Assembly: GCA_029975555.1 (NCBI GenBank) | Contig: JARKOY010000024.1 | Coordinates: forward strand, 1 to 64,000 | Length of the DNA stretch: 64,000 bases | Origin: Spirochaetia bacterium | GTDB lineage: Bacteria > Spirochaetota > Spirochaetia > Treponematales > Rectinemataceae | Direction of reading: 5' to 3' | In this document: positions 10,317-19,802 of the stretch, in pieces | Numbering within the stretch: position 1 is the first letter of the stretch | How the letters are laid out: every line of letters begins with the position of its first letter | The notes under the pieces: model-generated | Databases searched by the model: none | Told to the model about the DNA's origin: nothing | Seen by the model: the letters and a program-made list of their open reading frames with translations, nothing else | Program-made: the position numbers and the translations under genes

Positions 10317-12092
<1,776 letters not shown>

Positions 12093-12284: not shown

Positions 12285-12345
12285 ATATATTGTATAAATA
12301 ATATTATATAAATAATAATATAAATATAAAAATAGAATTATATAT
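12285..12345 (+). other. AT-only tract upstream of the cytochrome promoter
   Basis: About 60 bp composed almost entirely of A and T precede the -35 box at 12345, in a genome region that is otherwise GC-rich. Such tracts act as UP elements or bent DNA. The stretch 12123-12284 before it shows no gene or clear signal. Confidence 0.5.
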
Positions 12346-12372
12346 TGCAGTATTTCTGATTTCTGCTATAAT
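12345..12372 (+). promoter_or_regulatory. Promoter of the cytochrome c operon
   Basis: TTGCAG (12345-12350) and TATAAT (12367-12372) are 16 bp apart, with a TGC extended -10 motif. GGGAGG lies 5 nt before the ATG at 12411. Confidence 0.75.
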
Positions 12373-12410
12373 ACTAATGTTAGCATGAAGATGGATGCTG
12401 GGAGGAAACC

Positions 12411-13223
12411 ATGTCGGAAGTTAAGAAAATGCTTGAAAAAGACGTTTCTCGTCGAAGTTTTTTAAAGGCCACAGGCATTGGGCTCGGGGTGGCGACGAGC
12501 GCGCTTCTCTTCGGAACAGGCGTTGCGGGTGCGCAGACGCAAGGGGGCGTCGTCACGGAATCTCCTCTGCCCTACGCCGAACTCGATCCTGAAGAGGCCA
12601 GGCTCCGCGCACACGCGGCGTACTTCAGGGCAGGATGCTCATACGCCGTCTTCTATGCCCTGCTCTCGATGCTGCGCGACAAGGTAGGCGGCCCCTACAA
12701 CCAGATACCCCTCAGGATGCTCGGATACGGCCGCGGCGGCGCCGCGAGCTGGGGTACGCTGTGTGGGACGCTGAACGGCGCCGGCGCTGCGATCAACCTC
12801 GTCGCGTCCGACGCGGACACGAACAAGCTCCTCGGCGAGCTCATCGGCTGGTACACCATCACCCCCTTCCCCACAAAGGAGTCCGACGATGTGGCGGCCG
12901 CCAAGGGCTACAAGTACGACGCCAAAGAGTATATGACTGCAGCACTGCCTACGAGCGTGTCCAATTCGCCGCTCTGCCACGCCTCGGTCGCCAGTTGGAT
13001 CAAACTCTCCGGATTCCCTGAAGCATCGAACGAGCGTAAGGAGCGCTGCGCCCGCCTCTGCGGCGATGTTGCGGCGAAGACCGTGCTCATGCTCAACGCG
13101 TGGAAGGCGGGCACCTTCGCCGCTACCTTCAAGGTCAGCGACGAAACCGCAGGCTGCCTCTCCTGCCACAGCGATGCCCAGGTAGGCAAGATGGCCTGCA
13201 CCTCCTGCCACGAGCCCCATTGA
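12411..13223 (+). CDS. Tat-exported split-Soret-type cytochrome c
   Basis: The 270-residue precursor begins with a twin-arginine signal (SRRSFLKATG at about residues 14-23, hydrophobic core, GAQTQ cleavage region). The mature part has GCSYAVFYALL, the C-GCAxxG-C-C-type redox protein signature, SPLCHASVASW, and two C-terminal haem c motifs CLSCH and CTSCH. This layout matches split-Soret cytochrome c, first described in Desulfovibrio, where two dihaem subunits place their haems in contact. Tat export suggests folding or cofactor loading before transport, which is unusual for a c-type cytochrome. The following resB and resC genes would attach the haems outside the membrane. The electron partner is unknown. 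Confidence 0.85.
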   Translation: MSEVKKMLEKDVSRRSFLKATGIGLGVATSALLFGTGVAGAQTQGGVVTESPLPYAELDPEEARLRAHAAYFRAGCSYAVFYALLSMLRDKVGGPYNQIPLRMLGYGRGGAASWGTLCGTLNGAGAAINLVASDADTNKLLGELIGWYTITPFPTKESDDVAAAKGYKYDAKEYMTAALPTSVSNSPLCHASVASWIKLSGFPEASNERKERCARLCGDVAAKTVLMLNAWKAGTFAATFKVSDETAGCLSCHSDAQVGKMACTSCHEPH

Positions 13224-13250
13224 TCGGGCGCCAGTCTCAAAATTCAAACG

Positions 13251-13276
13251 ATGAGCGGGGCAGCCACCCCGCTCAT
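13251..13276 (+). terminator. Hairpin between the cytochrome gene and resB
   Basis: ATGAGCGGGG (13251-13260) pairs perfectly with CCCCGCTCAT (13267-13276) around a 6-nt loop, followed by TGTGT. It may partially terminate, so that the cytochrome is made in excess over its maturation factors. Confidence 0.55.
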
Positions 13277-13319
13277 TGTGTATGGTAGAATGTACGACTT
13301 TGGATTCGGATAAAAGGCC

Positions 13320-14384
13320 ATGAAATCTTCTTTCGACAAGATCTACGACGCGCTGCGCTCGGTAAAACTTGCGGTCGTACTCCTCGTGCTGCTCGCGCTC
13401 TTTGCGATCGCGGGCGGCATCGTTCCGCAAGGAAAACCGGCCGATTTCTACCTGAGCCGCTTTCCTGGCCCGAAATCGGTCATCATTCTGAGGTTCGGCA
13501 TCGATCATGTGTTTTCGAGCATCCCATTCCTCCTCCTCTCTTCGGCCTTCGTACTCAACCTGACCATCTGCACGTTCCACAGACTCACCGGCGAGTTTTC
13601 CAAGCCGCGCGGCAAGAGGCGGCACGGCCCCGACATCCTCCACCTCGGCCTCATCGTCCTCATGTTCGGCGCTGTGCTCACGGCGCGCACGCGCACCGGA
13701 ACCACCATCAATCTGCGTAAAGGAGAATCTGCGGACCTCCCCGACGGCGCAAAGATCGTGCTCGTAGACACAACGTACGAACAATACCCCGACGGAAGGC
13801 CGAAATCTTGGGAATCCACCGTGGAAATCTACGGTGGCCCTTCGCAGGCTTCATCCGCGGCGGCCGAGGCGCAACACGCCGTCCGTCAGTTCCGCATCAG
13901 GGTGAATGCGCCGCTGCGGCGTAAGGGGTACTCGATCTATCAGCAGAACTGGCACACCGAAAAAGAGGTCGTACTCAAAGACCCGATGGGGATGAGTCTC
14001 TCTCTGGACCAGGGTGCGCGCGCCGACACGAAGGACGGCTTTGTCCTGTTTATGGCGCTCGCCCCCTCGGAAGCCAGCACAGGAGAAGCTGGTAGTCCGA
14101 CGACTGCTGTCGGCACCGCAGATTTGGCCGTTACAGCTGCGCCCGAGGAAGCCGCCACCCGCGCCGTCTTCCTCCTCGAACAAAACGGCATGCGCACCGT
14201 CGTCAAGGCCGCTCCCGGCGAAAAAATCGGCGCGTTTACCTTTTCAGGGTACCTCGATCAGTCGATCTCAGGCCTCGCCATTGTCACCGACAGAGGCTAT
14301 CCCTTCGTCGCGGCCGGTTTTATTCTCGTCATTCTCGGCGTCTTCATTACCTATATTCGAAAACTGAAAGGAATGCTCGCATGA
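13320..14384 (+). CDS. resB: Cytochrome c biogenesis protein ResB
   Basis: The 354-residue membrane protein has the ResB pattern: two N-terminal membrane helices (LAVVLLVLLALFAIAGGIV and the segment after HVFSSIPF), a third near ILHLGLIVLMFGAVL, a long periplasmic domain with NAPLRRKGYSIYQQNW, and a last helix at residues 325-345 (YPFVAAGFILVILGVFITYI). ResB works with ResC/CcsA in system II haem attachment to apocytochromes. The gene overlaps resC by 4 bp and follows a cytochrome c gene, its obvious substrate. I rely on topology and context as much as on motifs. Confidence 0.85.
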   Translation: MKSSFDKIYDALRSVKLAVVLLVLLALFAIAGGIVPQGKPADFYLSRFPGPKSVIILRFGIDHVFSSIPFLLLSSAFVLNLTICTFHRLTGEFSKPRGKRRHGPDILHLGLIVLMFGAVLTARTRTGTTINLRKGESADLPDGAKIVLVDTTYEQYPDGRPKSWESTVEIYGGPSQASSAAAEAQHAVRQFRIRVNAPLRRKGYSIYQQNWHTEKEVVLKDPMGMSLSLDQGARADTKDGFVLFMALAPSEASTGEAGSPTTAVGTADLAVTAAPEEAATRAVFLLEQNGMRTVVKAAPGEKIGAFTFSGYLDQSISGLAIVTDRGYPFVAAGFILVILGVFITYIRKLKGMLA

Positions 14385-15166
14385 TCGCGACCGTTGCGTT
14401 CGGACTTTTCATTTTGAGCCTCATCATTCAGATCATCTATCTCTTTAAAAAGGCGGGCGGACAGGATGGCATCTCGCACTGGCTTTCGCTCGCCGCGGGG
14501 ATCCTTCTCCTGGTCGAAATCGTGCGGCGCAGCATCGCGATCCGCTTTGTCGCGCTCACCGGGATGTTTGAGTCGCTCATCTTCCTGGCCTGTGCCCTGG
14601 CGTTCCTCATCTTCGCGCTCCGGCACTTCAAATCGACAAAGGGAAACAGAGTCATACCGTTCGGGGCGACGATCATCGCGCTCACATTCCTCGCACTGGC
14701 GAGCTCGCCGCTCGCCCCCGCCGACGTAAAACCGCCCGTGCCCGCGCTCCAGTCGGGCTGGCTCGTGCTGCACGTATCATTCACCTTCATAGGGGAAGTA
14801 TTCTTCGCCGTGGGGTTTGTGAGCGCGATTCTGCAGCTCGCCACGAAAAGCGAGGAGAAACGCCAGAACTACGACCGCGCGACCTACACGAGCATTGCGG
14901 TAGGCTACCCGATCTTCACCGCAGGGGCCCTCGTCTTCGGCGCCATCTGGGCAGAGAAGGCCTGGGGCGTGTGGTGGAGCTGGGACCCGAAAGAAACCTG
15001 GGCGCTCATCACATGGCTGACCTACACTGCATACCTACACTTCAGGCTCGTGCGGAAGAGCACGAGCAGGCTAGTGCCGGCCCTCGTCATCGTCGGGTTC
15101 GCGATCGCGATGTTTACGTTCCTCGGAGTGAATTTTCTGCTCAAGGGGCTCCACAGTTACGCGTGA
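14381..15166 (+). CDS. resC: Cytochrome c biogenesis protein ResC/CcsA (haem handling)
   Basis: This 261-residue protein has eight or so membrane helices and the tryptophan-rich WGVWWSWDPKETWALITWL signature of the CcsA/CcmC/CcmF family, which binds haem on the outer face of the membrane. His residues flanking that motif (LHVSFTFIG and FLLKGLHSY) are at the positions of known haem ligands. It completes a system II maturation pair with ResB and would export and attach haem to the split-Soret cytochrome encoded upstream. No CcdA or thioredoxin gene is adjacent. Confidence 0.92.
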   Translation: MIATVAFGLFILSLIIQIIYLFKKAGGQDGISHWLSLAAGILLLVEIVRRSIAIRFVALTGMFESLIFLACALAFLIFALRHFKSTKGNRVIPFGATIIALTFLALASSPLAPADVKPPVPALQSGWLVLHVSFTFIGEVFFAVGFVSAILQLATKSEEKRQNYDRATYTSIAVGYPIFTAGALVFGAIWAEKAWGVWWSWDPKETWALITWLTYTAYLHFRLVRKSTSRLVPALVIVGFAIAMFTFLGVNFLLKGLHSYA

Positions 15167-17843: not shown

Positions 17844-17906
17844 TAAAAAACGAATAACCGGACAGTCGGTTTCTCCTTCAACATCAGCTTTTCAGGAGTA
17901 GTGTAC

Positions 17907-19802
17907 ATGCCCAACTACAGCTTTAAAACAGAAGTGAACCAGCTCCTCGAGCTCATCACGCATTCGCTCTACTCGCACAAGGAGGTGTTTCTGCGGGAGC
18001 TCGTCTCCAACGCCTCCGACGCGATCGACAAGCTCAAGTACCTCACCGTTTCGGACGACGCCTTCAAGACCCTCAGCTTCGAACCCCGCATCGACGTGAC
18101 GATCGACAGGGATGCCAAAACCCTCACCGTGTCCGACAACGGCATAGGAATGGACGAAAAGGAGCTTGCCGACAACCTCGGCACGATCGCGCGCTCAGGG
18201 ACGCGGGCCTTCCTCGAGCGCCTCGGCGAGAACGAACGCAAGGCGTCGAACCTCATCGGCCAATTCGGCGTCGGATTCTACTCCGCGTTCATGGTCGCGG
18301 ACCAGATCGAGGTCGTCAGCCTCAAGGCCGGCACGGACAAGGCCTTTGTCTGGAAAAGCGACGGCAAGTCGGGCTTCGACATCGAGCCCGCCACGCGCGC
18401 AGGCTTCGGCACCGACGTCATCCTCCACATGAACGATGAAGGCTCAGAATACCTCTCGCGCTGGAGCATCGAGGAGCTCCTCAAGCGCTACTCGAACCAC
18501 ATCGCCTGGCCCATCCACCTCATCTCCAAGGAGAAGACCTACGCAAAAGATCCTGCCAAGGCAGAAACCAAGACCGTGGACGAGCAGGTCAACAGCGCAA
18601 GCGCCCTCTGGCGCAGGCCCAAGTCCGAGCTTACCGACAAGGACTACATCGATTTCTACAAGTCCTTGACCGGCGATGAAAAAGATCCCCTCCTATGGAT
18701 CCACACAAAAGCCGAAGGGACCATCGAGTACACCTCGCTCCTCTACATTCCGTCACATCAACCCTCCGACCTTTACATTCCGACGCGCGAGCAGGGCATC
18801 AAGCTCTACGTGAAGCGCGTGTTCATCACCGACAAGGAGCTGCAGATTCTGCCGCCCTACTTCCGCTTCGTGCGGGGCGTCATCGATTCGGACGATCTGC
18901 CCCTCAACGTGAGCCGCGAGATGCTCCAGCACAACCGCGTGATGACGACCATTCAGCAGGCCACGCTCAAAAAACTCTTTTCTGAACTCGAACAGCTCGC
19001 CGCGACAAATCCAGAAAAATTCAAGACCTTCATCTCGCTCTTCAACGTCCAGATCAAGGAGGGCATCCTCTCCGACTGGGCCAGCCGCGAGTCGCTCTTA
19101 AAGCTCGTGCGCTTCAAGAGCACGATGGTCGAGGAGTGGACGAGCCTTGCGGACTACAAGGCGCGCGCGGGCGAAGGCCGCAAGACGATCTATTACCTCA
19201 CCGGCGAGAACGAGGCAAGGCTGCGCGCATCCCCGCTCCTCGAGGCGTTTAAGGAGAAGGGCATCGAGGTGCTCCTCGGCACCGACGAGATCGACGAGCT
19301 CGCATTCAGCGGCATCGGCGAGTTCGAGGGCATGCAGTTCAAGAACATTCAACAGGTCGACGCCGAGGAAGAGCTCGGCATATCCTCGGCCGAGCACCGC
19401 GAGCGAGGCGAAAAGGCCGTCAAAATCTTAAAGAGCCTGCTCGGCGAGCGCGTCAAAGACGTGCGACTGTCGAGGCGGCTCGGCAAGAGCCCGTCCTGCG
19501 TCGTCGTTGACAAGGACGAGCCCACGCCCGCATACAGGCGGCTCATGGAGAAGCTCACGAACGAGCCTGCCCCCGAAGTCAAGCCGATCCTCGAAATCAA
19601 CGCCGGACACGCCCTCGTGGAACGGCTCGTGGCGCTCGACACGCGCAAGGAACTGAGCGGCGGCGACCTCGCGGTGGTCCAGGAGCTCGAGGACCTGGCC
19701 TATGTGCTCTTCTACGAGGCTATCTTGGCCGAAGGCGAGCACTTTGAAGTCCCGCACGACTTCACCGAGCGGCTCAACAGGCTCCTCGCAAAGGCGCGCT
19801 AA
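17907..19802 (+). CDS. htpG: Chaperone HtpG (Hsp90 family)
   Basis: The 631-residue protein has all Hsp90 blocks: YSFKTEVNQLLELI, the ATP-binding EVFLRELVSNASDAIDKL, DNGIGMDEKEL and GQFGVGFYSAFMV, then the middle domain with RVFITDKE and DLPLNVSREMLQ. The length is normal for bacterial HtpG without the charged linker of eukaryotic Hsp90. I chose the ATG at 17907, 8 nt after AGGAG; an upstream GTG at 17901 is only 2 nt from that site. It acts as an ATP-dependent chaperone in the cytoplasm. Confidence 0.97.
   Translation: MPNYSFKTEVNQLLELITHSLYSHKEVFLRELVSNASDAIDKLKYLTVSDDAFKTLSFEPRIDVTIDRDAKTLTVSDNGIGMDEKELADNLGTIARSGTRAFLERLGENERKASNLIGQFGVGFYSAFMVADQIEVVSLKAGTDKAFVWKSDGKSGFDIEPATRAGFGTDVILHMNDEGSEYLSRWSIEELLKRYSNHIAWPIHLISKEKTYAKDPAKAETKTVDEQVNSASALWRRPKSELTDKDYIDFYKSLTGDEKDPLLWIHTKAEGTIEYTSLLYIPSHQPSDLYIPTREQGIKLYVKRVFITDKELQILPPYFRFVRGVIDSDDLPLNVSREMLQHNRVMTTIQQATLKKLFSELEQLAATNPEKFKTFISLFNVQIKEGILSDWASRESLLKLVRFKSTMVEEWTSLADYKARAGEGRKTIYYLTGENEARLRASPLLEAFKEKGIEVLLGTDEIDELAFSGIGEFEGMQFKNIQQVDAEEELGISSAEHRERGEKAVKILKSLLGERVKDVRLSRRLGKSPSCVVVDKDEPTPAYRRLMEKLTNEPAPEVKPILEINAGHALVERLVALDTRKELSGGDLAVVQELEDLAYVLFYEAILAEGEHFEVPHDFTERLNRLLAKAR

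Follow-up and report, generated by a model that had tools for sequence, protein, structure and literature searches.

How a spirochaete might load one exported protein with two different cofactors, and why it keeps a haem attachment system directly behind the gene of that protein, are the questions raised by a three-gene unit in a genome of the family Rectinemataceae. The unit lies on the forward strand at positions 12411-15166 of the window, the name used here for the 64 kb that open contig C113 (170,942 bases); the source genome comprises 179 contigs and 3.27 Mb, and is 99% complete with 2.4% contamination. It consists of ssc (12411..13223, 270 aa), encoding a split-Soret cytochrome c with a twin-arginine signal, followed on the same strand by resB (13320..14384, 354 aa) and resC (14381..15166, 261 aa), the last two overlapping by 4 bases. 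The initial annotation of the window had described such a unit, and this observation is confirmed: three open reading frames occupy these places and match the families named. Its interpretation is partly supported. The reading favoured here, to which we assign a probability of about 0.62, is that of a self-contained cytochrome unit in which a Tat-exported, metal-loaded cytochrome is served by a private ResBC whose expression is attenuated by a hairpin.

The cytochrome and its gene unit

The ssc protein matches the C_GCAxxG_C_C family PF09719 with 40.4 bits (gathering cut-off 27) over residues 76-224, and the domain is encoded at 12636..13049. The split-Soret equivalog model NF047622 also matches along its length (E 1.5e-49), yet the score of 168.9 bits is far below the curated cut-off of 400. 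Because of this combination, ssc is best placed in a divergent split-Soret subfamily, outside the curated Desulfovibrio-type equivalog. A sequence search of the Protein Data Bank (PDB) gave a single clear relative, 1h21 (E 3.9e-35; next match 0.11). An AlphaFold model of ssc built from a 53-protein alignment (mean pLDDT 84.9) leads to the same entry and to no other with Foldseek (E 8.2e-14, TM 0.71/0.80, the latter on the target; next E 1.5). Confidence in this model is high over residues 51-240, save for two blocks near 80, and ranges from 69 to 80 at the haem end.

Two CXXCH motifs stand at the C terminus, as in split-Soret cytochromes generally: CLSCH at residues 249-253 (13155..13169) and CTSCH at residues 263-267 (13197..13211). 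The first is invariant across the 53 aligned proteins; in the second, full invariance is limited to Cys263, with Cys266 and His267 close to it. Equally invariant are Cys76 (codon at 12636), Cys118-Gly119 (12762), Cys189-His190 (12975) and Cys213 (13047). The four domain cysteines would be the ligands of a predicted iron-sulphur centre, and His190 is a possible distal haem ligand. The title of the 1h21 entry names a novel iron centre, and a 2003 paper on that centre is said to describe it as of the iron-sulphur type and lost upon aerobic purification.

The two genes that follow encode a System II haem attachment pair. ResB scores 118.6 bits against PF05140 (cut-off 24.6), and ResC scores 143 bits against the cytochrome c assembly family PF01578 (cut-off 29.9) and 188.9 bits against the CcsB model TIGR03144 (cut-off 187.6). 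One ResB only was found in the whole genome.

Relatives of ssc were collected by scanning one genome per species; 201 were found, and the best-scoring 80 were kept, to which all counts out of 80 refer. Thirteen of the 80 (loci L012-L024) come from spirochaetes or from bins that group with them. Every one of these has resB after ssc, and 12 have resC as well; in L023 the contig stops within resB. In the flanks examined, resB was found in none of the other 67 relatives, all non-spirochaete, although the search model, derived from spirochaete sequences, could have overlooked a divergent ResB. Two archaeal ssc loci have a resC-like gene nearby. Conversely, 19 non-spirochaete ResB loci carry no ssc within about 1.5 kb, save for a 15-bit match to a nine-haem frame in L214. 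The ssc-resBC unit is real and well conserved; its arrangement is, among the loci examined, specific to spirochaetes, and the cytochrome represents a variant, particular to spirochaetes, of a family already known. A search of the open-licence literature yielded no description of spirochaetes with a split-Soret-ResBC cassette.

On the scale of whole genomes the pairing is looser outside the spirochaetes. A ResB search that covered the genomes of 50 of the 80 loci found the protein in 29, made up of 11/11 spirochaetes and 18/39 others; in 10 of the 11 spirochaetes the ResB of the cassette is the only one. Of 392 genomes sampled from the phylum, 4 have ssc, 53 ResB and 125 TatC, and the five sampled members of the window's own family contain ResB in all cases and ssc in only two. 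The premise that most spirochaetes lack c-type cytochromes, from which the initial annotation started, is weakened by these counts and by several same-family spirochaetes that have a decahaem cytochrome with their ResBC.

Conserved elements around ssc

Two noncoding elements of the unit, a tract of A and T and a hairpin, are better supported by comparison with relatives than the single sequence could show the earlier reader. A tract of 42 bases composed of A and T alone (12293..12334) lies just upstream of the -35 position, and it is present and highly conserved in seven relatives. Over the 40 alignment columns of its core, pairwise identity is about 94-95%, whereas the upstream columns reach 33-46% and the third codon positions of ssc 52%. 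It is the only AT-only run of at least 35 bases in 771,738 bases of sequence, partly overlapping, from the same genome, and the 64 kb window contains no further match with up to three mismatches. The tract is a candidate UP element or regulator site that would drive or control the promoter.

The putative promoter next to it (12345..12372, forward strand) reads TTGCAG, a 16-base spacer and TATAAT. The initial annotation called it strong, a label that holds only in part. In favour of this, the TATAAT (12367-12372) is perfect, and both it and TTGC are invariant in 7/7 aligned relatives. On the other side, TTGCAG matches TTGACA at 3/6 positions, and a consensus promoter scan of the window did not list a forward-strand ssc promoter, which leaves conservation as the one argument for it. 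A GGGAGG sequence resembling a ribosome binding site (12400..12405) precedes the ATG at 12411.

A hairpin (13248..13279) begins 24 bases past the ssc stop codon. It has 11-13 base pairs, and a stem of 13 contiguous pairs was equalled in 0/200 dinucleotide shuffles. Hairpins at this place occur in all 14 cassettes (the window and its 13 relatives), with 9-15 contiguous pairs matched by 0-8 of 200 shuffles per cassette. In the distant members L020, L021, L023 and L024 the stem sequence is wholly different while the hairpin is retained, which argues for selection on the structure. By eye, 12/13 relatives have a U-rich tail or a U-ended stem, that of L017 being on a second hairpin. The element is a probable attenuating terminator that probably limits resBC expression, and a leaky terminator of this kind would yield more cytochrome than ResBC.

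The clients of ResBC and the origin of the unit

The 3.27 Mb genome contains one split-Soret gene and 166 DNA matches that could encode CXXCH, compared to 114 for a reversed control pattern. The surroundings of 162 of these 166 places were read; at least two of the other four were seen in locus L179, such that at most two may be unseen. Frames of at least 40 aa were considered, with the smallest, last contigs included. A codon score above 0.10 was reached by 30/121 frames, and all 126 CXXCH motifs in frames of this length were then checked for double motifs or a leader. Among the CXXCH places read (at least 162 of 166), no multihaem frame with a leader was seen besides ssc and one octahaem gene. 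The remaining frames we take to be IleRS, UvrA, DnaG, DnaJ, L31, AhpD, radical SAM proteins and similar. They also include a shadow frame on contig C128.

The octahaem cytochrome has a leader, adjoins a transporter and lies on contig C67 (locus L008, G000:C67:14000-31096). The tetranucleotide composition of C67 correlates with that of the window at 0.80, compared to 0.94-0.96 for three other pieces of the genome, and the neighbours of the octahaem gene are presumably Desulfovibrio-like. Judged by composition, C67 is a probable contaminant from a Desulfovibrio-like organism. The prospect that the genome might hold many other c-type cytochromes, which would have undone the initial annotation, was thus examined by mapping CXXCH, and none were found in the places read beyond this octahaem protein.

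The surroundings of the unit indicate where its parts come from. Upstream of ssc stands aspS (10317..12092, forward strand), which is beside the cassette in L012-L016, L018, L020 and L246. Downstream of resC follow ricT, a bactofilin gene, an M23 peptidase gene and htpG (17901..19802, forward strand), the last of which shares the block in L012, L014-L016, L018 and L246. The same two genes flank resBC elsewhere: in the family member G371 resBC adjoins aspS and a decahaem cytochrome (L245), and in G376, which shares the class, it adjoins htpG (L249).

Two trees were computed. That of ssc (81 rows, a quick method with SH-aLRT support only) dropped frames shorter than 230 aa (L078, L081) and two distant multihaem matches. 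Its 14 cassette proteins form one deep clade (98), whose neighbour is a group that mixes Desulfobacterota and archaea with deep Bacillota (88); the G216 protein is placed elsewhere. Within the cassette clade, L018 (Rectinema subterraneum) branches between the window and L019. One study excluded the R. subterraneum genome as contaminated (PMC12236494); the shared gene order speaks for a genuine cassette. In the ResC tree (43 rows with a small outgroup, omitting L014, whose frame is split in two, L023, where the contig ends, rows below 75 bits and duplicate loci), 12 cassette ResC proteins form one clade (92/63; 99/98 with L211) inside a spirochaete ResC clade of 28 rows (100/100).

The trees, together with the position of resBC beside aspS in G371 or htpG in G376, suggest that ResBC has long belonged, in the spirochaete lineage, to the aspS-htpG chromosomal region, into which ssc would have come from outside. 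The phylogeny that had been proposed as a check for transfer does not point to a recent donor. A recent transfer of ssc from Desulfobacterota or Clostridia is unsupported, since the spirochaete proteins lie inside neither group. ResC, for its part, nests among the ResC proteins of other spirochaetes.

The resBC genes of other spirochaetes have varied company. Ten- or eleven-haem cytochromes beside resBC (L245:3750-4958 on the reverse strand, L192, L196, L197, L204 and L209; likewise L182, L183 and L194) have one in-frame stop at the same place. Most read EGEG*AG there, the codon is TGA in the six loci where it was examined, and about 30 nearly unchanged bases follow. These broken frames are candidate selenocysteine proteins, and they show a distant likeness to ExtN/ExtO of selenite/tellurite operons. 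In two other spirochaetes of the order (L186 and L188, from G231 and G348), the gene ahead of resBC encodes what we take to resemble a di-haem peroxidase, its two CXXCH motifs lying apart. Another genus of the family (L243, G245:C65) combines resBC with an eleven-CXXCH and a three-CXXCH protein and, farther along, a ferredoxin with a Tat signal and a membrane protein that looks NrfD-type. In G063 (L211; L242, C9), resB and resC are met by a convergent tatC and arsenic-type genes with no adjoining cytochrome; this locus is possibly a remnant or a precursor of the cassette.

Export, role and competing explanations

The motif SRRSFLK (residues 13-19, 12447..12467) fits (S/T)RRxFLK, and the genome encodes a single TatC by profile search (E 4.7e-42). 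RR in the form RR.F[LI] is present in 13/14 cassette proteins. Among 83 family proteins of at least 230 aa, 48 carry the strict RR pattern and 53 a loose one, and most of the others, from Bacteroidota and Ignavibacteria, have RK. TatC occurs in the genomes of all 13 cassette-bearing relatives, compared to 125/392 in the phylum sample, and tatC adjoins the cassette in L019, L022 and L024. The TatC scores of the L012-L024 genomes are either 149-176 or 213-225 bits, and close relatives can differ in this; TatC may have been replaced while the need for it was retained. The view that Tat export of a cytochrome c is unusual does not hold for this family: RR or RK is found throughout, and Tat signals have been predicted for archaeal split-Soret cytochromes (PMC4429474) and for the Shewanella protein SO0939 (PMC3623810).

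Haem attachment requires an unfolded CXXCH and occurs, in System II, outside the membrane; the Tat system requires a folded protein. Both haem motifs of ssc sit in the last 22 residues, the less certain part of the model, so both demands would be satisfied if a folded domain trailed a loose tail. In the favoured reading, the domain carrying Cys76, Cys118, Cys189 and Cys213 would fold in the cytoplasm and load an iron-sulphur-type centre there, which is the proposed reason for the twin-arginine signal. Tat would then export the folded domain with the last 22 residues still unfolded, ResBC would carry haem across the membrane and attach it outside, and dimerisation of ssc would complete both haem sites. 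The hairpin would end most transcripts after ssc, giving much cytochrome and little ResBC. The product would be a small electron carrier of the periplasm, in a probably fermentative spirochaete that apparently has no other c-type cytochrome.

No gene in the 64 kb window indicates a partner for ssc. Elsewhere in the genome, a Tat-type ferredoxin precedes an aldehyde ferredoxin oxidoreductase (L146:5890-8810, G000:C112; 1089.7 bits against a curated cut-off of 868 for the oxidoreductase), and close by lie genes that resemble those for FdhD, the molybdenum cofactor and an ABC transporter; this pair is a conceivable candidate partner and nothing more. Arsenic-type genes are near 17/80 ssc loci, with an SBF transporter in 9, an ArsP_1 permease in 12 and a methyltransferase in 6. 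Pfam gives SBF and methyltransferase only, which we take to be ACR3-type and ArsM-like, respectively. Such neighbours occur in many phyla (L023, L036, L054, L066, L070, L076, L082, L091 and others) and include DsbD_TM and thioredoxin. From published work, a Pyrodictium relative is tied to the cytochrome b of a formate dehydrogenase and was detected with nitrate as well as with ferrihydrite (PMC8105010), the split-Soret gene of D. desulfuricans is lowered by NO (PMC5701242), and Rectinema cohabitans is characterised as an obligate fermenter (PMC6052044).

Several observations weigh against the favoured reading. If C67 is genuine after all, ssc is not the lone cytochrome. The window's hairpin is followed by no U run (its tail, GTATGGTAGA, is U-poor), nor is that of L019, which makes termination at these two hairpins unsure; the suggestion that the hairpin sets the protein ratio is supported by the structure found in 14/14 cassettes, mostly U-tailed. 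The ssc signal falls narrowly under the Tat profile cut-offs (TIGR01409, 16.0 against 16.7; PF10518, 14.7 against 22.7), and the L021 protein has RK in place of RR. A Tat system dedicated to ssc is rejected, the genome having at least one other Tat-type protein, the L146 ferredoxin. Finally, ssc mutants of D. alaskensis had no phenotype under any condition of the study (PMC4215793).

Of the other explanations, the most serious is that an ordinary inherited split-Soret cytochrome happens to neighbour a general-purpose ResBC, which serves or recently served other cytochromes. Such an accident of location would fit the spirochaetes that keep resBC at a similar place with another cytochrome or none (G371 and G376), the nesting of the cassette ResC among those of spirochaetes, and the nearest ResC, in G063, which stands beside tatC without an adjoining cytochrome. 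It is nevertheless doubtful, given that no other genuine c-type cytochrome was seen in the genome, that the cassette ResB is the sole one in nearly all spirochaetes searched, and that gene order and hairpin are kept across cassettes. Alternatively, ssc might move electrons for metalloid or thiol handling instead of general electron transfer. The arsenic-type genes speak for this, particularly in the spirochaete L023, where a permease, ArsR, SBF transporter and second ArsR run directly into ssc and resB. In 677 kb of background from the window's genome there are none, save for one locus with ArsR matches, although this background represents one organism and the enrichment is rough. With 63/80 loci devoid of such genes and none in the 64 kb window, we consider a detoxification role unlikely. 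An even slimmer chance attaches to Sec export, with a decorative RR and a cysteine domain that binds no metal before export. The profile scores below the cut-offs would agree with it, as would the fact that System II attaches haem outside the membrane anyway; the RR or RK of the signals across the family, the TatC of every cassette genome and the iron centre in the title of 1h21 all argue against it.

The self-contained unit favoured here can be extended to a broader and tentative account, possible although the balance is against it. In this group of probably fermentative spirochaetes, the entire c-type cytochrome apparatus may have shrunk to one protein and a haem lyase of its own, expressed from a single promoter, with a foreign two-cofactor ssc exported by Tat having taken over a resident ResBC where a relative keeps a decahaem cytochrome; metal would be loaded before export and haems after, with the conserved attenuator fixing the ratio of client to lyase. 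If so, nature would offer in this unit a minimal system in which to study the passage of one protein through two cofactor pathways, on the two sides of a membrane. As cytochrome c maturation here seems to have a single known client, one gene cluster allows tests of client choice, of dosage and of whether metal or haem is loaded first. The unit also indicates that some spirochaetes held to be plain fermenters have a periplasmic redox protein, its gene behind a distinctive conserved element.

Known systems share parts of this arrangement. In related spirochaetes, the loci L192, L194, L196, L204, L205/L245 and L209 place a related ResBC beside a decahaem cytochrome, and L245 also adjoins aspS. 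These loci differ in encoding, instead of a split-Soret protein, an unrelated multihaem cytochrome whose leader is Sec-type and whose frame contains a TGA. The PF09719 proteins, described as putative redox-active, have the domain in common, to which ssc adds a di-haem tail; to our knowledge, most members have no haem motifs. Closest to ssc is 1h21, the split-Soret protein of Desulfovibrio desulfuricans strain ATCC 27774. The two share their fold, a pair of CXXCH motifs at the C terminus, the four cysteines of the domain and a Cys-His pair, residues 189 and 190 of ssc. Aligned by structure they are 32% identical, and the spirochaete genes are encoded with resB, as none of the 67 non-spirochaete relatives is in the flanks examined. 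ResB and ResC themselves belong to the same families as other ResBC/CcsBA System II proteins, and are likewise encoded by adjacent, overlapping genes. Unlike the usual System II, they form one unit with a single cytochrome as their apparent sole client, behind a conserved hairpin.

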